Shown here one piece after another: positions 2,024 through 59,370 of a stretch of DNA of 64,000 nt. Source of the stretch: a virus; the IMG/VR virus record IMGVR_UViG_3300017917_002280, positions 1 to 64,000 of that record; one strand, 5' to 3'. The position numbers and the translations under genes are program-made. Position 1 is the stretch's first letter. Every line of letters starts with the position of its first letter. The notes under the pieces are model-generated. The model saw only the letters and a program-made list of their open reading frames with translations. It searched no databases and was not told where the DNA came from.

Positions 2024-3786
2024 AGTATCCTCATCACCCCGAAAGGAGTTTCTTCTTCAAAAACTTCCTGCTCAACCATCTTGGGGTTGTCTTTATAGAA
2101 TGTTTTATATGTGTGAATATCAATTTCTACATCCTCGCTTTGCTTCTTTGTTTCAACAATTGAATTGTATATTGAGCCACATACAGCATCTGACAAGTCT
2201 TTAGATCCCTTTCTTGGGTGATCTACCTTACCTCTAATTATCCTCAGCTGCAATAACTCATCAACAAGCAACTTGATTGTGGGACCATGAACTCTTTCCT
2301 CACCGACCAATATTGCAAAATCATCATAATGCTTTTTGGCTACAGATAACACCTCTGCATTTATTCCAACCATTCTTAATTCACTCATAATGTCGTGAGA
2401 GTTCCATCTGTCAAATGTAACCTTTTTAATGTTAAACCCGCGACTCCTTAAGTCAAGGATAAATTGCTTTACTTCAGAGAAGTCTACAGATTTATCTGAA
2501 GTTGGTGTCCACCATCTGACACAATCAACGATCACATACGGATTGACAACTGTGTGGTCCATAAAGCTTTTTACATTTACCCACTTATCAACATGGCTCA
2601 TTGCAACAGCACAGTGGTCATGCTTTTGTGCAAGGTCAACATGGACATAGTATTCTTTTTCTTCTTGTGGGACAAACCAATTATAGAATCTGCCATCTTC
2701 TGTGACACCATTGTACGGCTGATTGAAACATTCTTCAATTTTCTCTCTTGATTTAAAGAATGCATCTACTGCATCTGGTGGCATACAGGCAAAGCGAGAT
2801 AGTGCATCTACTGTATTATTTAAGAAAGCAAGTTTAAAGTCATTGATATTTCTTGTTGGATTAATGTCCCAAGTGGGTCTTTTAAGTGCAAAAACTTTCG
2901 GGTATTTATACGCAATAATTTCCTCTTCTTCCCAGTCAACTGTGAAGGTATTTCCCTCTATATCTTCGTCTATTTCTTCATCAAGCACGAATGTGTGAGA
3001 TTTAACCGTTATATCTTTTTCTGCAACAACAGCATTATATCTTTGCTGAATAAAGTCTCCCTTGTATCTTGGGAATGAAAGAAGAATTACTTTTCCAAAA
3101 TCTGGAAAACGGGAATCTACAGATGCCCTATACATATCATAGATTGCTTGCGCTGTTTTTGACTGCTCACTGCCCGATGTTGATTCTGAATTAAATCCAG
3201 AAATCTCATCAAGGATTACAACAATAACATTGTAACCCTCCCAAGATTCTCTTTCTGAGTGACCAGAGTGGCAGGTAATTGCTTTGTCAAAGGCTACGGC
3301 ATTAGCTGTGACATTATATTTTCCAGCAAACCAAGGAGAATTTTCAATTCTATTTCTAAATCCTTTGAAGAAAACATTCTTTGCCTGCTCAGAGTTGATA
3401 GCAATATTGATAATATCAATGGCGTCTCCGGGTGGCTTTCCAAAATATCCTGCTGGATCTTTCAGGCATAAAAGCAAATAAACTATATAGGAAACGGCAA
3501 TGGTGGACATATAATCCTTACCAGAACCTTTACCAAGTTGAAGTATAACTTCATTACAGGTTTGCTTCCATCTCTTGCTTCCCTCATCTTCGCCAAAAAG
3601 ACTAATAAGAGTGTTCTTTTTAAACACTTGGGTCATGGCGCGAATTGCCTGATATTGATATTCTGATAGGGGTGGCAATGATAAATAGTTTTTATCTGTT
3701 ACAAATTGCTCTAGTGTTACTGGCTTTTCCTCAAACTCATTGTCACCAAGAACATCTAATATATCTGAAAAATCAAAGCCCGACAT
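2020..3786 (-). CDS. terL: Terminase large subunit
   Basis: ATP-driven DNA packaging motor and headful or site-specific nuclease. At 588 residues it has the family's usual size. A Walker A-like loop (GKGSGK, residues 85-90) and Walker B (VIVVILDE, Asp193-Glu194) lie in the N-terminal ATPase. An RNase H-type nuclease begins near residue 385 (YYVHVDLAQKHDH, where the Asp is the expected metal ligand), with further acidic residues in VTFDRWNS and KDLSDAV. The start shares one base with the stop of the small subunit gene. Confidence 0.93.
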   Translation of the reverse strand: MSGFDFSDILDVLGDNEFEEKPVTLEQFVTDKNYLSLPPLSEYQYQAIRAMTQVFKKNTLISLFGEDEGSKRWKQTCNEVILQLGKGSGKDYMSTIAVSYIVYLLLCLKDPAGYFGKPPGDAIDIINIAINSEQAKNVFFKGFRNRIENSPWFAGKYNVTANAVAFDKAITCHSGHSERESWEGYNVIVVILDEISGFNSESTSGSEQSKTAQAIYDMYRASVDSRFPDFGKVILLSFPRYKGDFIQQRYNAVVAEKDITVKSHTFVLDEEIDEDIEGNTFTVDWEEEEIIAYKYPKVFALKRPTWDINPTRNINDFKLAFLNNTVDALSRFACMPPDAVDAFFKSREKIEECFNQPYNGVTEDGRFYNWFVPQEEKEYYVHVDLAQKHDHCAVAMSHVDKWVNVKSFMDHTVVNPYVIVDCVRWWTPTSDKSVDFSEVKQFILDLRSRGFNIKKVTFDRWNSHDIMSELRMVGINAEVLSVAKKHYDDFAILVGEERVHGPTIKLLVDELLQLRIIRGKVDHPRKGSKDLSDAVCGSIYNSIVETKKQSEDVEIDIHTYKTFYKDNPKMVEQEVFEEETPFGVMRIL

Positions 3787-35797: not shown

Positions 35798-36354
35798 TAC
35801 GCCTCCACCAATGTCATATCAATGTTCCACAGATCGTGGTAATGTCCCCTTTTTGTAACTGTAAAGTTGAAATCTTGAAAGAATACATGGATTTTTTCTG
35901 CCCAACCAGATGTTGGCGCAATGTTTGCACTTGCAGATAAAATTGGAGCGTCATAAACTAATAACATCCAGAAGTCCTTTTTATATGTGTTATACCAGTT
36001 CAACATGTCTTGACCCGCCCCTATTCCAGTTATTGAAGAGTCTTGAATAAATTTTTTACCATATCCACGATCTAATGAGCCAGATGTTGGGGTTGCCCTT
36101 GATGGAAAATCGTTCCAAGATGTGCTGAAAGTTCTTTTATCTGCAATAAAATAACTTCTCATTGTTCCATCAATCATTCTATCTTTTGTTTCTATTCTTT
36201 CATACTGGACTTGAACTGCATCTCTACTATCATCGCTTAAATACAAATAATTGGAGCCTAGTGTCCAAGATGTGCCAGAGGCGGTTCCAGTTGGTTCAGT
36301 ATCGCTAAACACTATCATTGATGGTCTAAGCCAGTATTTTTGTAAGGCAGGCAT
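35797..36354 (-). CDS. Distal tail-like protein (185 aa)
   Basis: It lies immediately after the tape measure gene and before the hub, the usual place of the distal tail (Dit) protein that caps the tube. The sequence is beta-rich and Trp/Tyr-rich, with a closing NFTVTKRGHYHDLWNIDMTLVEA. Assignment rests on gene order; it is shorter than many Dit proteins, which makes a related minor tail protein possible. Confidence 0.5.
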   Translation of the reverse strand: MPALQKYWLRPSMIVFSDTEPTGTASGTSWTLGSNYLYLSDDSRDAVQVQYERIETKDRMIDGTMRSYFIADKRTFSTSWNDFPSRATPTSGSLDRGYGKKFIQDSSITGIGAGQDMLNWYNTYKKDFWMLLVYDAPILSASANIAPTSGWAEKIHVFFQDFNFTVTKRGHYHDLWNIDMTLVEA

Positions 36355-39300
36355 TATATTCTCCTAGACATATCTGATGCATTCTCATATCTTTGAAGCT
36401 CTTTCTCAAACTTTCTATACACTTCATTTGCATCAGCACCATTAGCATTAATTATAATGCTATATGTGTTATTTGAAGTTGCCCAAGAGTTTAATCCACC
36501 ATTTGCAAACCTTCTTGGTGTTGGTGGGGAATAGTTGGGTGCGGCATATCCACCTAATGCAAATCCTAAAGAATTAATTCTATCCATTGTTGCAACGCCC
36601 ATTCTTGCTACTGCTGCTGCATTAACAACATATTCCCCATTAGATAACATTGCTGGAATTAAATCTGATTTTGGACCTCCGGGTCCTGAAATATATCCAC
36701 CATTTGCATTTCCTCTAACCATAATGCGCGTTGGTCTTTTTTTAGTGTTTGCTTTTTTACCGCCCGATGCTCCAGCCATCATTGCTTTTTCTTCTTCGCT
36801 TAATGGTGTTGCTTCTGCGGCTGCTAGCATTGCTTTTTCTTCTTTACTTAAAGGTGTTGCTTCTGCATTTGCTAGCATTGTTTTTTCTTCTTCGGTTAAT
36901 GGCGCTGCATTTGCAGGTGCGCTTCCCGGATAGCTCGTTGGGCTAACTCCGGGAAGTTCGTTTGAAAATGATGCACCAAGACTTTGAAGCAATACAGATT
37001 TAAGAGTTTCTTCGTCAACCCCCAATGTTTTTGCTGCTGTTGAGATTCCAGCCTGAATTCCAGACGCAAAGACATCTCCAACTTTAGAGAATGAACCTTT
37101 AAGATTTTTTATTCTTTCATCTAGTGCTGTTTTATCTTCATCTTTAAAAAATTGAGAATTTTTATTTATTGTTCCTAAAACTCCAGATTTCCCATCTTTT
37201 CCAACAAAATCATTTTGAAGTTTAACAATTAATTTTTCTTGTTGTGTTATATCTGCATTAACAAAGGCAGACAAATCATCTATGGCTTCATTAATTTTAG
37301 TATTTATTTGATTTTGTGCAGCAATTGTAGCATTTTTCCATTGTGTAATTTGTGCAAGTCTTTTTTCATGTCTTGTATCTTCAGCTCTCTCTGCATCTTC
37401 AATTGATTTTATTTCTTCTTCTCTAGCTGCAACTGCCGCATCTCTTGTAGACTCAATTCTATCAATTTCGGACTGAATTCCATATTCTCCTGCTTGTGCA
37501 GAAATGTTTTGTCTTGCTTGTAGGAATCCAAAGACATCTCCCTCTGCAAATGCCTTCATTGCCTCAATAGTTGTTTGTCTTTGTCTTGCATAAAAATCTT
37601 CTTCTGTTTTTTTCTTATCAAGGGACTTAATATATGCATCAGTATTCTTATTAATGTCGTCAATTTCGTCCTGCAATTGATCTTTTCTATCGGCATAATT
37701 GTCCATAATGTTTTTGTGATATTCATTTTCGGCATTAGTCATATTATCTAAAGCTGTTTTTCTTTTTTCATAAACTTTGTTTTCTTCTTTTAGTTCATTC
37801 TGTAGTATTGTAATTGCATTTGTGGCAAACTCTGCATTTCTTTGCTGAGCTTCCTTTCTTGCGGTAAAATCTGCCGCAAGATATTGAAGGCCAATTTCAC
37901 CCTTTTCTTTATAAATTCTTTCTAGATCAGATGCTTTGGCTCCAGCATTTATTGCCTCGGCAACATACATTGAAAGATTTGATAGTGGATCTGCTAGTGC
38001 CTGCTTAACCAATGGGCTGTCTGCTGCCATTCCTAATCCAGTAAACAAAGATATGAGATTTTGTGAAATTTTATCCTTAATTTCGGGATTTATTGCAGCC
38101 ATGCTTACAGCATACTCAAATATTGATGTGATTGCTTTTTGAGATCCAGTAATATCTTCTGCCCCCATCAAAATCGCAGTGTTAATTCCACCAATAAATT
38201 TTTCTGCAACAGCTGTTGATTCTGCCTCTCCATTATATTTATCTGCAGCTATTTGCATTGCCGTGCGAATACTTCCAGATAGTCTATCGGACATTGTTTG
38301 TCGTAGTTCTCCCATATGTGAATCTTCATTTCCGGGGAAGAATACGCTCTTCATAAAGGCTGAAAAGTCTACAGATCTGCCAGCCTGTCTTGCAACTTCT
38401 CCTAATATTTCTTCTACTGCTTGAGGCTGTAAACCTTGAGCAATCATATTTTGATATGCAATTGAAAGTTCATTTTGTGCTTCTGTTCCAAGAGCAGCAT
38501 CTTTAATTGTAGAAACAAAATTTTTATAGTCTGTTTTTACAAGTTTTGTTAAATCCTCTTGACCAACAATTGGCTTCTTTTTTCCGGGAATATTAATTTC
38601 TCCAGTAAGCCTTCTATTTTCTTCAAGGACAGTATTTACAGTTTTTAATTCTGCTCCATACATTTTTGCTGCTTCTTTTGCATCTGTGAATGCAGATGAG
38701 GCCTGATCTTTTACTTTTTTGAGCATTTGCTTATGCTTTTGAATAAAGTAATATGTTATTCCACCGATTGCGGCTACTGCTGCTGCACCTGCCAAAACAT
38801 ATGGATTTGAAAGAAGCGGTCCAAGTCTTGTCAACATTGGTCCAGCTTTAGTCAGCAGGCTTTGTCCCTTTTTCATCATATTTGTTACTATTCCAGTTTT
38901 TCCAGCAGCTTCTCTTGCCATTATTTTTGTACTAAGAGAGGCTGCTTTTTCTGCTGACTTTAGTGACAACATTTGCATTTTTCCACCAAGACCAGTAAAT
39001 AGCTTACCTCCAAGTTTTGAGTCAACTATTCCTTTTACTTCATCTGTCATATCTTCTGGTCTGACTTGCTTTCTTAAATTCTTAAGTTTTAAGCCACCAG
39101 CCATTGATTTTACAGACCCAAGAACCCACATTGCTTCCATTGCAGCCATGAACATGTTAATAGCTTTTGTTCCTTTATCAGTGCTAGATGCAAGAGATCC
39201 AAGTGTATATCCAAGGCTTTGAATTGAAAACATGGCATTCATTACTGCCTGACCACCACCCTGCCCACCATTTCTTTCATTTACGAATCCTGAAAGTTTT

Positions 39301-42300
39301 TCTGAATCTGATTGATTTGATGGTGTTGGCCTTGGATTTGTAACATTGTCTAGAGTTCTTCTTGTTCTTCTAAAATCTTCTTCTGACATTCCTGCTGCTG
39401 CTGCTTGCTGACTAACAACCCACGCTCTATATTCTTTAGATGATTTTATTCCTTTTGGTGGTCTTGCACCAGATGGCACTCCACCATCTGAGCCAGATTT
39501 CTTTGGAACATATGGAATAATGTCTAATCCAGCATCTCTAAATTCTTGTTCTTGCCTTCTTCTATTTCCATTATTAAGATCCATGACTGCTTGATAAGAC
39601 TCATTATTTAATTTTTCTGTCATTTGATTAAGTCTTAGCAATGAGCCATTTTCAAGTCTTATTGCATTGCCAAGTTGAAGAATACTTGGATTAATTACAG
39701 CAATTTCTTCTGCTGTCAAGTTCATTTTGACTCTCATTGAGTTTGTTGATTTTCCAAGCGCCTCAAATTTTTCAATTATTTCACCAAATTTCGAATCCAT
39801 AGACTTGACTCTCTTCATTGCTCTTTCCATGATTATTGGAAGATTGGTATCATCTATATGGTCAAAATCTTTAGCGGCAGAAAGAACTTCGACATCTAAC
39901 AACTCTAATGCCTTTTTTGCTTCTGTAATTGAAACTCCGCTTTGTTGTAGTGCAGGAATCCATTTTTGCAATCCTATTGATTTAAATTCAGTTGCAAACT
40001 GTTGAGATGTGACCCCAACATCTTTTAATTTTTGATTCAATTGTGCTGGAAGGTCTACAACTAAATTAGATAGCAATTTAATTTCTACAGCGCCCGCACC
40101 ATACATATCAATAAATTTTTGAAGTTCTAATAATGCCACTTGCATTTTTTCTCTTATATTTATTCCAGAGCCTAAAATATCTGCTGGTGTTGACATTGTT
40201 GGGGAAGTGACATGTGTCATTTCAGTTTCTCCGGGGTTGCCTCCATACTTCAGCTTCTTTACCATTCCACCATATGCATATCTTCCAGCATTTAGATTAT
40301 CCATGAAATCAAGTCCATATTTTTTCACAGAGGAGGCTTTTATCACATATTCTCCATTTGAAAGCATGGCTGGAATTTTATCTTCGGTTGGACCACCTTC
40401 GCCATAAACCTTTCCTCCAGATGCCCTTGAAATCATATCTGTGCTGAATGCTGAGGACATTGCCCCCGGTGAATATGAGCTTTCATACCAACGAGAACCG
40501 CTTCTGCTATATCCAAGAGCCTCTGAAAGAAATCTTCTAACTTGTGAATCTCTAATTATTGAAGAGTCATACTTAGACTTAAATAATTTATCGTGTTTTA
40601 CTTTTTTAAGTTCTGAAAAAGGCATTCCATATTTATCTTCCATATACTTTTTGAGGAATACAATTTCTTTGCTTGTTACACCAAAAATTCTCTTTCTATC
40701 CTTTTCTAGCTCAAAGAGTTTACTCTCTCTGTCTGGTGACATATAAGCTTCACTTCTCTTTTTCAAATACTCATCTGCTTCGTTTCTTAGTGGTCCCTCT
40801 AGGAACATTGGGCGCTTGCCCTCTACTCTATTAAGAATATCTGATATTAAAAAGTCTCTTTCTCCACTTGCCATCGGAGCCGTCAAAAATGATAGGAACT
40901 TATCCTCCGAACCTTCGTGTGCATATGCTGAGAACCCGGAAAGATTAATATATCTTTTTGATTTTGGCAAACCAGCTGATCTTACAATAAACTCGCCTTC
41001 CGATCCAATTTTTGTATGACCAGCATAGTTTACGCCCTGAATTCCAACGATAGCAGATTTTGGAACATCCATTTCAATAATTCTTGGATTTTGTCCAAGT
41101 GAAGAAGCATTAGCAAATTTTAGAATTTTGTGAAGGTCATGTGAGAATGAAAGAAATGGCTGATATGGCTCAACATCTTTTGTTGTGTATCCATAGTGAC
41201 CACGAGTTACATCTGCAGTTTCTGGACCTGTTCTAATTGCTCTATAAAGTCTTACTGTATTTCCGGGGTATTGTGCCAGCATTGCCTGAAGGGATTGTGA
41301 GCCAGCAAGAATATCTTTTTCAGACATATTTCTTAATACATTTTTGTCGCCAAACTCCCCTGATGCGTGAGCTTCTAAAGCCTGTACAAGAGCCTTTTCT
41401 TCATTTGTTCTTGCGGATATTGGCTTTGATAGAATTGCTGCTATATCGACATTTCCTTTTGCCCCCTTAGCCCTTGATCCAAAGAATTGGTCTATTCCAT
41501 ATCCTTGGTATCTTGACTTAGAAGATCTTAAATATCTTTCGGTTGCAGATGCTGTGATTCCTCTTACTCTTGGTCCTGCTGCTGCCAGCAAGCCCAATAT
41601 TCCAGAAACACTTGCATTTTTTCTTGAAAGTTTTTGGTCTCTTTGTCTTATAATTGGTGCAGCAGTAGGAGTTGTTTGACCAGATGATTGGTTGTAAAGG
41701 TAGCTGGGGAAACCAGATGATATTGGAATACCCATTCCAGCCATAGCAATTCCGCCAATATCAAAGTGTGCTGGGCCACCTGTTGCTTTTCTGTTTGCAA
41801 TAAATTTAGATCTTGATATTTGCTTTGATGCAATGTTGGAGAATATTCTTCCAAAAGACTGATCGTTGAATGTTTTATCCTGATTTGCATACATATACTT
41901 ATTCATATTATCTAGTATTGCACCAGATACTGAAAGTGCCTGATCTTTTGACAAACCAGCCTTCATCAATTCGCTTGTAACTGAAATAAAATGCCTTGGT
42001 TCTCTTGCAGATTCTAACCAGTCTCTTCCAGTTGCAGTTCCGGGAGATACAAGCTTTTTGTTAAAATCTTTTGTAATTGTTATATAGCTATTTGGCAAAA
42101 TGTCATATATTTCATTGCCCTTAATTGAGCCAATAAGTCCTTTTGGCATATTAGCACCAGATATTCTTGGCGCAGAACCTCCAGATGCTGGTCCATATTT
42201 TTTCATAAATGATGGAGTAAAAATGTGACCTATTACTTCATTTGAATTTGGTCTTCCAAGCGCAAATGCTTCATTATCATAGAATCCAGAAGTTCTGCTA

Positions 42301-44612
42301 CTTCTCTTTGTGGAATATCTAGAAATTGACTCATATGGGGATGCGCCCTCTTCATATATATTTCTAGTAGATCTTTTTGTTCTTTCTTGACCTGATCTTG
42401 TTATATATCTTGATGATGCTCTTGTTCCACCGATCAGAGAGAAGATATCCATGATTGCTGCTACTGCTGGGTTTCCACCGCGCTTTAGTCCAACAATTCC
42501 GCCATTTGCATATTTACCAGCATTAATATCATCAAGGGTCTGCTTTCCATATTTATTGACAGAAGATGCCTTGATTACATACTCACCATTTGATAGCAGT
42601 GCTGGAATTTTATCATCGGTTGGACCTCCGGGACCTGAGATATATCCACCACTAGCTCTTCTAGTCATTGGTGTAGGATTAAAAAGTCCGGGTCTTGTCT
42701 GGCTAAGTTGTGACAATTTTGCCATATATATTTGAAGTGAGGCATTTAGTTTATTAAGTGCGCCTTCTTGACTTTCAAAGGATTGTGTTAATTTATCAGA
42801 AGCTAGTTTTGCTGCTAGTTGTTCGTCTGAAAGCATTTGGAATCTTCCAGTTTTAATGCCAGCCATTGCTCTAACCATATTGACAAAATTCATGGTGAGC
42901 TTTACAACATTACCGCCAAAGTTGGCAAATAGACCCACAAGCATTACGATTGGTCCAAGAAGTGCTGTAACTGCTGCTGTAATCTTTAAGAAATTCTTTG
43001 TTGGACTTGGCAATTTCTCAAGGAAGTCAACGATGTTTCCAACAATGTCTGCGAATTTTGAGATGATTGGTGTGATATTTTCTGCAATAGTTGCTCCAAG
43101 AGGAAGAAGTTCTGCCTTTAGCGATTCCATTGCTCTTTGCATTCTAACTGGGGCAGATTCTTGAAGAGTCTGCATTTCTCGGTATGCCTGCTTTGCTAAG
43201 TCTATTGCAGACATTGTTGATAGTTCTAGAATTTTTTTAGTTTGAGAGCCTTCTTTATTTAGATTGTCAAACAGGGCAGAGATTCTAGCAAACTGATACT
43301 TTCCGAAAATTTGTTCAATTACTTGGGCTCTTCCAAAAGAATCAAGTCCAGATAATGCTTTTTGGAATCCCATTATTGTTGGCATCAACTCTCCGCGAGT
43401 TGACTGTACCAATTTTTCAATATCTATACCGTACTGCTTGGCAACTTCTGATGCTTTTTTGGTGGGGTTTATAAGAGATGCTAAACCAGACTTAATTGCG
43501 TTAGCACCTTCTCCTGCATCTACTCCACCTTCCTTCATGGCAACAAGAAGAACGGACAGATCTTTAATGTCTCCACCAAGGGCGTTAATTACTGGACCAG
43601 TTTTTGGAATTGCTGTTACTAGGTCTTGCAAAGATGTTGATGTTTGGTTTTCTACTGAGTTCAGGAAGTTTACTGAGTCTGCCAATTGTTTTGTGCTCAT
43701 GTTGAAGGCTGTTTGCAGTGACAAAGTTGCCTTCATAGCCTCTTGTCTATCTACCTCACCAAGCACAGCAAGCTTTGTGGTTTGCTCAACTGTTTTTAAT
43801 AGCCTTTGGCCCTCAAGTCCAGTTGCCGCTAAATCAGCAGCCAAACCAGCAGTTTCTTTTGCTGCAATTCCATATTCTTTAGCTATTGTTTGCGATAGAC
43901 TTAAAACTTGAGCCTTCATTGACTCTGTTGCTTGTTTGGTTGTGCTAGTTAGATCAGAGCCGTAAACTTTGGAAAATCTTGTAAGTTCTTTTTCTACATC
44001 AAGGAATGCTTTTGTTATATTAGTCGCCATTAAAGCTATTGGCAGTGATAAACCGACCATGAGCTGACGGCCAGCCCATTGTGTATTTTTACCAAAGTCA
44101 ATTAGTTTTGTTGCACCATCTTGAACTAAAGTATTAAAAATTTCAAATTGTTTTCTTGCAAGCATTGTCTTTGCTGAAAGACCGCTTAAATCTGCTGTGA
44201 GTGGCTTTATAAGCACACCCTTTTTTCTTCCGCCAACACTTCCAAGCTCTACAAGTGTTGATTGAAGTTTTGCTACTTCTCTTTCCGCAAGTTTTCTTGT
44301 ATTGCTTGTTGATTTGAATGCCTGAGAAGCTTCTTTTGCATATTCTCTTAAAGTTAATTTACTTTTTGATACTGCGTTTCCAAATGAATCAACCGTTGAT
44401 GTAATATCAACGATTGATGTTTTAAAATTTCCTATTGATGCTAAATCTCTTTGAAGAGCACTAGCTAAGCTAAGCATTGACTGCTGAGCGTTTTTATCAA
44501 ATGCTTTAAATTGAACATTTATGGCAGATATGTCTTTAGCCAATAATTTGATCTCAGACCTCAGCGGGCCAAAATCACCATCATATCTAAAGGTAGACGA
44601 TATATCTGCCAT
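36354..44612 (-). CDS. Tape measure protein with embedded ADP-ribosyltransferase-like domain
   Basis: 2,752 residues, the largest protein here, setting tail length. The N-terminal 500 residues are helical with phage tail-tape core patterns (EYGIAAKETAGLAADLAATG, AIPKTGPVINALGGDIKDLS). Membrane-like segments lie near 540-575 (ITAAVTALLGPIVMLVGLFA) and near 1,930-1,955 (YVLAGAAAVAAIGGITYYFI). A glycine-rich motif, GPGGPTDDKIPALLSNGEYVIKA in its first form, occurs three times (about 655, 1,400 and 2,640). Between the first two copies lies an insert with LYRAIRTG (Arg1124), PFLSFSHD (Ser1155/1157) and GSEGEFIV (Glu1205-x-Glu1207): the R, S, E-x-E order of ADP-ribosyltransferases. Long coiled coils fill residues 2,230-2,500. 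Confidence 0.9.
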   Translation of the reverse strand: MADISSTFRYDGDFGPLRSEIKLLAKDISAINVQFKAFDKNAQQSMLSLASALQRDLASIGNFKTSIVDITSTVDSFGNAVSKSKLTLREYAKEASQAFKSTSNTRKLAEREVAKLQSTLVELGSVGGRKKGVLIKPLTADLSGLSAKTMLARKQFEIFNTLVQDGATKLIDFGKNTQWAGRQLMVGLSLPIALMATNITKAFLDVEKELTRFSKVYGSDLTSTTKQATESMKAQVLSLSQTIAKEYGIAAKETAGLAADLAATGLEGQRLLKTVEQTTKLAVLGEVDRQEAMKATLSLQTAFNMSTKQLADSVNFLNSVENQTSTSLQDLVTAIPKTGPVINALGGDIKDLSVLLVAMKEGGVDAGEGANAIKSGLASLINPTKKASEVAKQYGIDIEKLVQSTRGELMPTIMGFQKALSGLDSFGRAQVIEQIFGKYQFARISALFDNLNKEGSQTKKILELSTMSAIDLAKQAYREMQTLQESAPVRMQRAMESLKAELLPLGATIAENITPIISKFADIVGNIVDFLEKLPSPTKNFLKITAAVTALLGPIVMLVGLFANFGGNVVKLTMNFVNMVRAMAGIKTGRFQMLSDEQLAAKLASDKLTQSFESQEGALNKLNASLQIYMAKLSQLSQTRPGLFNPTPMTRRASGGYISGPGGPTDDKIPALLSNGEYVIKASSVNKYGKQTLDDINAGKYANGGIVGLKRGGNPAVAAIMDIFSLIGGTRASSRYITRSGQERTKRSTRNIYEEGASPYESISRYSTKRSSRTSGFYDNEAFALGRPNSNEVIGHIFTPSFMKKYGPASGGSAPRISGANMPKGLIGSIKGNEIYDILPNSYITITKDFNKKLVSPGTATGRDWLESAREPRHFISVTSELMKAGLSKDQALSVSGAILDNMNKYMYANQDKTFNDQSFGRIFSNIASKQISRSKFIANRKATGGPAHFDIGGIAMAGMGIPISSGFPSYLYNQSSGQTTPTAAPIIRQRDQKLSRKNASVSGILGLLAAAGPRVRGITASATERYLRSSKSRYQGYGIDQFFGSRAKGAKGNVDIAAILSKPISARTNEEKALVQALEAHASGEFGDKNVLRNMSEKDILAGSQSLQAMLAQYPGNTVRLYRAIRTGPETADVTRGHYGYTTKDVEPYQPFLSFSHDLHKILKFANASSLGQNPRIIEMDVPKSAIVGIQGVNYAGHTKIGSEGEFIVRSAGLPKSKRYINLSGFSAYAHEGSEDKFLSFLTAPMASGERDFLISDILNRVEGKRPMFLEGPLRNEADEYLKKRSEAYMSPDRESKLFELEKDRKRIFGVTSKEIVFLKKYMEDKYGMPFSELKKVKHDKLFKSKYDSSIIRDSQVRRFLSEALGYSRSGSRWYESSYSPGAMSSAFSTDMISRASGGKVYGEGGPTEDKIPAMLSNGEYVIKASSVKKYGLDFMDNLNAGRYAYGGMVKKLKYGGNPGETEMTHVTSPTMSTPADILGSGINIREKMQVALLELQKFIDMYGAGAVEIKLLSNLVVDLPAQLNQKLKDVGVTSQQFATEFKSIGLQKWIPALQQSGVSITEAKKALELLDVEVLSAAKDFDHIDDTNLPIIMERAMKRVKSMDSKFGEIIEKFEALGKSTNSMRVKMNLTAEEIAVINPSILQLGNAIRLENGSLLRLNQMTEKLNNESYQAVMDLNNGNRRRQEQEFRDAGLDIIPYVPKKSGSDGGVPSGARPPKGIKSSKEYRAWVVSQQAAAAGMSEEDFRRTRRTLDNVTNPRPTPSNQSDSEKLSGFVNERNGGQGGGQAVMNAMFSIQSLGYTLGSLASSTDKGTKAINMFMAAMEAMWVLGSVKSMAGGLKLKNLRKQVRPEDMTDEVKGIVDSKLGGKLFTGLGGKMQMLSLKSAEKAASLSTKIMAREAAGKTGIVTNMMKKGQSLLTKAGPMLTRLGPLLSNPYVLAGAAAVAAIGGITYYFIQKHKQMLKKVKDQASSAFTDAKEAAKMYGAELKTVNTVLEENRRLTGEINIPGKKKPIVGQEDLTKLVKTDYKNFVSTIKDAALGTEAQNELSIAYQNMIAQGLQPQAVEEILGEVARQAGRSVDFSAFMKSVFFPGNEDSHMGELRQTMSDRLSGSIRTAMQIAADKYNGEAESTAVAEKFIGGINTAILMGAEDITGSQKAITSIFEYAVSMAAINPEIKDKISQNLISLFTGLGMAADSPLVKQALADPLSNLSMYVAEAINAGAKASDLERIYKEKGEIGLQYLAADFTARKEAQQRNAEFATNAITILQNELKEENKVYEKRKTALDNMTNAENEYHKNIMDNYADRKDQLQDEIDDINKNTDAYIKSLDKKKTEEDFYARQRQTTIEAMKAFAEGDVFGFLQARQNISAQAGEYGIQSEIDRIESTRDAAVAAREEEIKSIEDAERAEDTRHEKRLAQITQWKNATIAAQNQINTKINEAIDDLSAFVNADITQQEKLIVKLQNDFVGKDGKSGVLGTINKNSQFFKDEDKTALDERIKNLKGSFSKVGDVFASGIQAGISTAAKTLGVDEETLKSVLLQSLGASFSNELPGVSPTSYPGSAPANAAPLTEEEKTMLANAEATPLSKEEKAMLAAAEATPLSEEEKAMMAGASGGKKANTKKRPTRIMVRGNANGGYISGPGGPKSDLIPAMLSNGEYVVNAAAVARMGVATMDRINSLGFALGGYAAPNYSPPTPRRFANGGLNSWATSNNTYSIIINANGADANEVYRKFEKELQRYENASDMSRRI

Positions 44613-57408: not shown

Positions 57409-59334
57409 TTATACCTTAGTAATATCGCAGGCTCCAGCCACACATGCAAGCTCTTGGCTTCCAGTCGTATTGTCAGATGTTTCATAGTTCTGAAGCCAAT
57501 TCCAATCTAAATCGGCTGGTGTCTCTGATAATAGTTTAGCATATTCTGATTCAGAAATCTCCTGATATGGAGCTTGCTGGTAAACATGGTCTGAATATGG
57601 CAGGAATGAAATTCCAGAAAGTTCATCGATGTGGTCATAAACCCAAGCACCTACTGCCATCCATTCATCCTCTCTTACTGAAATTGTAATTGACGGCTTG
57701 TGCTCTGTCCAGTAACGCTGGTATGCCAACCATAGCTCAAGGTGTTGAATTGCAGTAAGGTCTTCTCTTGTAAGGGCATCCTGTGGAGCCTTTATTGGGA
57801 ATGTAAAAACAACTGTGTCGTTTGGCTTCATGACATCTGGCTCGCTCTTGATTCCCATATCCTTTAGGAAGTCTGTCACTGGATCTTTTACATCTGCGCG
57901 AATTGTTCTTGCGTAAAATTGACTGTGCCAAGTGTGCATTCCAGAAGAACAGTTGACCAATTGCGACACTGTTCCGGAAGGTTTTACGCAAGTAATTGCT
58001 GCTGCTGGTTTAATGTTCAGCTTATCTGCATATTCTTTGTTTATGGCGACAGCATGCTCTCTAAGTTCATCAAGCCATTGTGTTAACTTTTCGTACCCTT
58101 CTTTTCCGTTTAGAACGGAGTGTCCCAACTGACCTGTAAGCGAGACTCCAAGAAGTCTTTCCTCTTCACAGTTATTCTGCCACTGCTTTCTTAGATACTT
58201 GAATCTTGTAAATGTTGATTGGAATGTTCCAAGAATTGTTGCAAGCTCAACTTTCTTCTTTAGGTCTTCAAGGGTGTCTGTTTCTCTTACGACAACCTCT
58301 GTCAAGTTGCAAAATTCAAACGGTCTCAAAATAATTTCAGAGCACGGATTGGTTCCGAAATCAAAGCTCGCGTCTCTTCTTCCATTTTTTGCTGCGACTC
58401 TTTTAGCAGCATCTCTTGAGAAGATTCCTCTTTCTCCAGACTTTGAATCATACAAGGACTTCCACTCAGCCATGAATACTTCCATAGTTGGTTTTGTCTC
58501 ATATGTCGCAGAGTTGTTTGCAAGTGCTCTTTGACCATTGTACTCCCACCAAGAACCAGCTTTGGCTGCTGCCATATTTCTATCCTCAAGATCTGACAAA
58601 GAAATCATGGCGCTTCTACGAACACCACCAACAACAACAACTTCTGCAATCTTACACATAATGTCATGTGCCTCAATCGGGGTAATCTTTCTTCCAGCAG
58701 CATTGCGAATTGTTGAAATTGTAAACTTGAAAAGTCTGTTTAATGGCTCTGGGCCTGAAGCGCGACCTCCGAAAGTCTTAAGTCTTGCGCCTGCAGGACG
58801 CACTCTAGTCAAATCCCAATCTGGGATCTGACCTTGATAAAGGAGGGCAATGAGCTCTCTTAGAGCCTTTGCCCAGCCAGCTTTGGAATCCTCAACAACA
58901 ATGGTGGTATCGCTCTTCTCAAAGTGCTCGTTTACAACTGGAAGTTGATTTACATACTTTGACTCTACAGAGTACCCCACGCCTGTTCCACACATCAGAA
59001 TATACATGGCCTCGTCAAACGAGCGCAGGGAGTCTACTGGCAAATATGAACAGTTATAAATGCAAGTGTTATCTCTTTCAAGTGCTGGTCCTGCTGTCAT
59101 TAGCGCTCTCATTGAAGGCATAACATTGGTGTGTAAAATAGCACTTTCAATGTCGGACTTTATATTAGTCGGAACAGAATAATTGTTGTATTTTTCCAGT
59201 GCGTCAAAAATGTAATCTGTGAATCTAGAAACAGTCTCGTGCCAATCCTCCCTACGGTTTTCTTCCTCAATCCATCGTGCATATCTGGTCTTGTGAATAA
59301 CCTGCTGGTAGGCAGTTGGTAATGAAACTGTCAT
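57409..59334 (-). CDS. nrdJ: Class II (adenosylcobalamin-dependent) ribonucleotide reductase
   Basis: Reduces ribonucleotides for DNA synthesis. The ATG at 59,334 has GGAG about 9 nt upstream; an ATG 15 nt earlier is part of that site. The sequence is of the monomeric RTPR type: AYQQVIHKTRYARW at the start, CGTGVGYSVE, NPCSEIILRPFEFCNLTEV (Asn, thiyl-forming Cys, Glu, and the second redox Cys), KPSGTVSQLVNCSSGMHTWH, and a C-terminal Cys-x4-Cys pair in ELACVAGACDI for re-reduction. With 641 residues it is shorter than the Lactobacillus enzyme (about 740). Confidence 0.9.
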   Translation of the reverse strand: MTVSLPTAYQQVIHKTRYARWIEEENRREDWHETVSRFTDYIFDALEKYNNYSVPTNIKSDIESAILHTNVMPSMRALMTAGPALERDNTCIYNCSYLPVDSLRSFDEAMYILMCGTGVGYSVESKYVNQLPVVNEHFEKSDTTIVVEDSKAGWAKALRELIALLYQGQIPDWDLTRVRPAGARLKTFGGRASGPEPLNRLFKFTISTIRNAAGRKITPIEAHDIMCKIAEVVVVGGVRRSAMISLSDLEDRNMAAAKAGSWWEYNGQRALANNSATYETKPTMEVFMAEWKSLYDSKSGERGIFSRDAAKRVAAKNGRRDASFDFGTNPCSEIILRPFEFCNLTEVVVRETDTLEDLKKKVELATILGTFQSTFTRFKYLRKQWQNNCEEERLLGVSLTGQLGHSVLNGKEGYEKLTQWLDELREHAVAINKEYADKLNIKPAAAITCVKPSGTVSQLVNCSSGMHTWHSQFYARTIRADVKDPVTDFLKDMGIKSEPDVMKPNDTVVFTFPIKAPQDALTREDLTAIQHLELWLAYQRYWTEHKPSITISVREDEWMAVGAWVYDHIDELSGISFLPYSDHVYQQAPYQEISESEYAKLLSETPADLDWNWLQNYETSDNTTGSQELACVAGACDITKV

Positions 59335-59370
59335 AAAAATCTTCTCCATCTTTTAGTAAAGTTAAATAAT

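Follow-up and report, generated by a model that had tools for sequence, protein, structure and literature searches.

Phage ADP-ribosyltransferases (ARTs) are known as proteins packaged in the head, T4 Alt being one example. T4 Alt and the Alt/VIP2 ARTs fused to MuF head proteins (PMC9503650, PMC7302621) are enzymes of the R-S-E type thought to enter the cell together with the DNA, and a survey covering 21,191 viral proteomes reports fusions to head, portal and MuF proteins but leaves tape proteins unmentioned (PMC9503650). Three further systems are close in other respects: the polyvalent proteins of phages and conjugative elements, which are large virion proteins carrying several effector domains, ARTs and kinases included (PMC5512222, where tape measures are unmentioned); tape measures with peptidoglycan hydrolases, generally known as enzymatic inserts that act at entry; and the effectors Sle1 and Tme of the contractile injection systems of Actinobacteria, which are tape-like, have exchangeable domains and are ejected by a phage-tail-like machine (PMC13277306). 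Here we analyze the tape measure protein encoded in a 64,000-nucleotide stretch of viral DNA, hereafter the window (positions 1 to 64,000 of IMG/VR virus record IMGVR_UViG_3300017917_002280, which has 66,306 bases), and a putative ART domain embedded in it.

The comparison with these systems brings out what is particular to this locus. T4 Alt and the MuF ARTs are head proteins, whereas here a protein of the tail, the tape measure, serves as carrier. The ART family highlighted among polyvalent proteins (PMC5512222) is of the H-Y-D type, whereas the tape ARTs described below are of the R-S-E type, and we saw none of the polyvalent-protein hub domains, of which MPTase is an example. Hydrolase inserts act on the wall, whereas ART and kinase-like domains need nicotinamide adenine dinucleotide (NAD+) and adenosine triphosphate (ATP) from the cytosol; Sle1 and Tme, in turn, are C-terminal helical effectors of a contractile bacterial machine for which no ART is mentioned (PMC13277306), in contrast to the internal, motif-bracketed inserts of a phage tape. 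The reading that we favor, and consider likely, is that the window tape holds a modular cargo insert with a probably active mono-ADP-ribosyltransferase of the R-S-E (VIP2/C3/Alt-like) class, which would be delivered with the tape for early modification of the host. According to the first-pass annotation of this DNA, phage ARTs are not known to be carried inside a siphovirus tape measure, and no ART in a tape measure was found in our full-text literature searches, whose coverage largely excludes preprints and subscription papers (PMC5512222, on polyvalent proteins, and PMC9503650, on viral NAD+/ADP-ribose systems, both treat head, portal and MuF fusions and are silent on tape proteins); likewise, 50,697 named phage records gave no significant match to the ART domains tested. 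The gene and the elements on which this reading rests are as follows.

36354..44612, minus strand: tape measure protein, 2,752 residues, a single open reading frame (ORF); PhageMin_Tail at E 7e-30, PHROG tape families down to 4e-123
43302..43883, minus strand: PhageMin_Tail core, residues 244-437 (Pfam PF10145, E 7e-30)
40863..41495, minus strand: ART-like domain, residues about 1040-1250, ranked first by a four-block ART model and assigned by motif
41241..41243, minus strand: codon of R1124, the putative NAD-binding arginine, in the strand-1 motif LYRA (sequence and block model)
41142..41150, minus strand: codons of S1155-F-S1157, the STS-type motif (sequence and block model)
40992..41000, minus strand: codons of E1205-x-E1207, the ExE (ARTT-loop) motif (sequence and block model)

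The residues singled out by the first-pass annotation (R1124, S1155/S1157 and E1205/E1207 of a 2,752-residue tape) are all found at these positions, the motifs LYRAI, FLSFS and EGEFIV beginning at residues 1122, 1153 and 1205, and its claim that their order and spacing are those of an ART is borne out as well. The distances R-S, S-V and V-E (31, 24 and 28) fall within the ranges of PF03496 (28-76, 15-30 and 25-28), and a hydrophobic strand with a PK block is present between SxS and ExE; the middle residue of SxS is F in the window and mostly T in PF03496. For a quantitative comparison, 30 genuine PF03496 domains were taken from genomes of the cyanobacterial phylum, and 19 of them provided both the training sequences and the spacing limits of a model with four blocks (R strand, STS block, strand ending in PKG, ExE block). 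This model ranks the window domain first among 1,758 tape-protein segments, with 21.5 bits versus 14.5 for the next, and places its blocks exactly at R1124, S1155, 1179 and E1207; the window score is reached by 2 of 8,790 shuffles when the model derives from PF03496 alone, and by none of 13,016 when the other tape-ART families are added. Over all ORFs of the window, the domain obtains 28.9 bits versus 17.2 for the next candidate, a score attained in none of 9,300 shuffles. Since six genuine PF03496 domains outside the training set score between 30 and 62 bits, versus 21.5 for the window domain, the latter is best regarded as a divergent case. A strict regular-expression scan of the variable tape sequence (76,352 residues) yielded one match, versus none in 50 shuffles; being post hoc, it is not relied on as evidence.

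A more general observation is that ART signatures recur in related tape proteins. Relatives were collected from IMG/VR as 135 regions retrieved with the tape N-terminus, 15 more retrieved with two ART families and a further 49 with a third, the same contig being sometimes counted more than once, and the inserts lying between conserved tape segments differ from phage to phage. Three further insert families with ART signatures, designated here as the L002, L003 and L100 types after the loci concerned, occur in 12 of 100 non-redundant tapes (13 counting the window), and the ARTs of the first set of tapes are located at residues 780-1760. In the L002 type (L002, L007 and L071), which is the top match of the PF03496 profile across 1,236 tape segments, R25, S50, S52, E238 and E240 are invariant at 38% identity. 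In the L003 type (L003, L072, L070 and relatives), R63, S107-F108 and E181 are invariant over 15 copies; most complete tapes contain two or three copies in tandem, and in the tandem arrays of L003, L072, L146 and L151 every copy ends in GGRV or GGRI. Copy a alone keeps the full ExE, copies b and c having lost the first Glu, perhaps with a changed reaction.

The L100 type was first met as the runner-up of the block model. It shows 35-45% identity across six tapes of the first set. All 49 of the 49 loci carry R, S-W-S and E-x-E, and in 48 the domain shares its ORF with a tape N-terminus. Its Pfam matches, to PF03496 (E 0.049) and DRAT, are sub-threshold; an alignment to PF03496 spans 127 columns and pairs R, S and E (p 0.003, versus 0.12 for a reversed decoy), and profile comparison links it to the L002 and L003 types (E about 3e-5), R and SxS falling in register. 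Against named phages, only the tape motif of this type was matched among the matches listed. At least one copy in every ART family has an aromatic residue between the serines (S-F/W-S), as the window does. As a separate observation, a motif 'GGPVNAGRPYLVGEKGPE.FVP' borders the ART in L100-type tapes, lying behind it, and recurs in the tape proteins of many named phages as a second kind of seam motif.

Structure prediction was given to the L003 type, for which a real alignment was available. The AlphaFold2 model (predicted local distance difference test, pLDDT, 65.5; predicted template modelling score, pTM, 0.66) has its secondary structure in ART order, with R63, SFS (S107) and E181 on strands. 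In a Foldseek search, the best 50 of 356 PDB matches are all ARTs (probability 1.00, best E 3.6e-6), comprising C3 exoenzymes, VIP2 and other binary-toxin A components, Vis and Plx2a; the viral library BFVD adds VIP2, Alt and other phage ARTs, so that by fold the model is to be likened to the VIP2 and Alt proteins. TM-scores near 0.47 point to the right fold with imprecise geometry, and, as modelled, the L003-type insert is of the split beta-sheet ART fold. Taken as signatures in alignments and one predicted structure, the presence of ART inserts in the tape measures of this virus group is well supported.

For the window's own copy, which is probably an ART judging from its motifs, the main alternative is that R, SxS and ExE came together by chance within some other fold even though related tapes carry ARTs, and several results weigh in that direction. 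By sequence, the window domain finds no match in Pfam (even at E 10), PHROGs, the PDB, phages or IMG/VR; hidden Markov model and HHalign searches miss it, with unremarkable ranks of 149 (HHalign) and 59/175; comparison with alignments A10 and A3 gives p values of 0.05 and 0.13, although the register is right; AlphaFold2, run on the domain in the absence of an alignment or homologs, returned an uninformative model (pLDDT 35.5); and the blocks of our model were defined with the candidate known, though from independent sequences and standard ART motifs. What speaks against a chance arrangement is the first rank in the block model, with four canonically spaced blocks and a score that shuffling of the window did not reproduce, together with the higher prior that follows from ARTs of other lineages occurring in this protein family; we regard this alternative as unlikely, albeit as the strongest of those considered. 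The claim of an ART domain is supported by the signature, the independent tape families and one predicted fold; the window domain gave no significant match to a curated ART profile, and we call it ART-like rather than a Pfam member. A search of G000 with PF03496 and PF01129 was likewise negative, in two runs whose controls gave no signal either. Two weak tblastn matches were rejected as chance, one to a repetitive structural protein of cyanophage S-TIM5 and the other to the head protease of Streptomyces phage Hank144. Also rejected was a co-alignment of the window domain with the other families for folding, in which MAFFT misplaced the Arg and whose outcome would have been close to homology modelling.

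The ART-like domain lies in a module delimited by copies of a glycine-rich (Gly-rich) motif.

42465..42668, minus strand: first copy of the Gly-rich motif (residues 649-716), which brackets the module on the left (sequence)
40233..40436, minus strand: second copy of the Gly-rich motif (residues 1393-1460), which brackets the module on the right and is continuous with the L001 downstream sequence
36516..36719, minus strand: third copy of the Gly-rich motif (residues 2632-2699), close to the C-terminus (sequence)
41772..42410, minus strand: first of the module's cargo domains (residues about 735-947), with a relative in the L120 tape
40428..40862, minus strand: rest of the module, residues 1251-1395 (~145 residues), for which no relative was found

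The motif proper starts at residues 655, 1399 and 2638, and its first two copies share 47 of 68 amino acids (69%) and 106 of 137 nucleotides (77%). An insert of about 700 residues between two Gly-rich copies, as originally described, is in fact 744 amino acids long, and a third copy exists besides. The L001 tape, 65% identical to the window over its first 641 residues, lacks the module and has one copy of the motif, immediately after which its sequence matches the part of the window tape downstream of copy 2; from this we conclude that the 744-residue stretch is a discrete unit that has been gained or lost. The inserts are also missing from the Streptomyces phages whose tape is closest and whose gene order is the same. 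The guanine-plus-cytosine content is 0.38 inside the module and 0.36-0.38 outside, so that there is no sign of chimeric assembly. The first cargo domain is 30% identical over 230 amino acids to residues 986-1203 of the L120 tape (E 4e-25), where no ART is seen beside it; it is also weakly shared with the L124 tape, and its 'GHIF/GHIY' stretch resembles the xHh start of many other inserts. The window tape has two cargo domains; among its relatives, some tapes have ARTs in tandem and others pair an ART with a nucleotidyltransferase-like domain.

Other enzymes are found among these inserts. A kinase-like domain occurs at varying positions in 16 of 100 non-redundant tapes (alignment A12; e.g., L017:12173-12865), mostly at residues 730-1590, with an exception in L079 at 2799-3028. 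Its invariant K62, E73, D142, N147 and D155-x-G157 form a K-E-D-N-DxG kinase pattern (pattern sequence 'DKDLQPDNLYGNVVTDVG'), by which motif the family is named, and the members scanned gave no Pfam match. Directly behind the ART of the L071 tape, residues about 1450-1620 form a cytidylyltransferase/NMNAT-like domain (PF01467, over the Pfam cut-off; 'FGRMNPPTSGHKKLL'), possibly making an NAD-related pair with it. A second and different kinase-like insert ('GNADTHSGNFGI...VMLDN'), resembling HipA/PI3K by eye, was noticed before the ART copy of the L070 tape, at residues about 760-1000. Peptidoglycan hydrolases of related tapes (SLT_3, M23, NlpC/P60, amidase, CHAP, LysM) lie mostly towards the C-terminus, and beyond residue 2000 wherever coordinates were read. 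The combination of ART, kinase-like and nucleotidyltransferase-like inserts is a typical repertoire of injected effectors.

How such a tape might act can be outlined by analogy, which makes delivery and effect of the ART plausible. Tape proteins of tailed phages exit the tail tube at ejection. The insert between the two Gly-rich copies would be lost or swapped between phages with the tape core left undisturbed; if the tape exits C-terminus first, the wall hydrolases would be presented first and the central domains later, a sequence of events that, from general knowledge of tape proteins, fits the arrangement of hydrolases and ARTs. The ART domain would then enter the envelope or the cytoplasm with or ahead of the DNA and refold; its need for NAD+ points to the cytosol. 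There, with NAD+ taken from the host, it would modify a host protein or some other target, perhaps on arginine if the arginine-type fold named in the first-pass annotation is a guide, promptly and before phage gene expression, in parallel with T4 Alt acting from the head; RNA polymerase, as for T4 Alt, would be the obvious guess as target. Delivery meets an obstacle in that a folded ART of ~25 kDa would hardly fit beside the tape bundle in the tube and would need to pass through it unfolded; a change of shape for passage through the tube has been discussed for tape-like effectors (PMC13277306).

A different possibility, which we consider improbable, is that an active ART works in the producing cell, during late infection, tail assembly or virion modification, rather than by injection. 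Tape and other structural proteins are, as is generally known, made in the infected producer cell, and location in a tape is by itself no proof of delivery; however, delivery is the best explanation for fusion to an ejected tape core that recurs in several ART families and is accompanied by kinase-like and nucleotidyltransferase-like inserts, and the peptidoglycan hydrolases of the same proteins are expected to act at entry. The least probable alternative, by a little, is that the domain keeps an ART fold but is catalytically dead and serves for spacing or binding in the tail: the loss of the first Glu in some L003-type copies indicates that drift within inserts occurs, but the window retains R, SxS and ExE in full, and their conservation throughout the L100-type loci is best explained by selection for catalysis.

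Beyond the window, the ART and kinase-like inserts in the tapes of related uncultured phages suggest that the tail, and not only the head, injects enzymes that reprogram the host. The broader proposition, on which we are evenly divided, is that carrying host-directed effectors is a general property of the tapes in a large siphovirus group, most of it uncultured: exchangeable ART, kinase-like and nucleotidyltransferase-like domains destined for the cytoplasm would occupy central, motif-bracketed sites, wall hydrolases would mostly occupy sites closer to the C-terminus, and the flanking Gly-rich copies would be the seams at which cargo is exchanged; were this so, the tail tube would be a second route of protein injection beside the head. 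With ARTs built into the tape, the first protein out of the virion would itself contain host-modifying enzymes, and the range of tape lengths in the group (about 1,200 to 3,900 residues) would be easier to explain. Core length compared with total length of the tapes showed no clear ruler relation. Requiring NAD+ or ATP, the ART and kinase-like domains would also be built-in reporters on whether tapes reach the cytoplasm.

The tape measure ORF is the largest gene of the window and lies between the tail chaperones and the minor tail genes. The gene order is that of Stanwilliamsviridae Streptomyces phages, which agrees with the siphovirus tape of the first-pass annotation and makes a siphovirus identity of the phage plausible. 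A scan of GTDB genomes with the tape N-terminus retrieved a single relative, L136 (CAINGU010000031.1), with a 36% identical tape on a contig binned into a cyanobacterial metagenome-assembled genome. Adjoining the structural genes, positions 57409-59349 of the window encode a ribonucleotide reductase (phrog_367, E 4e-189).
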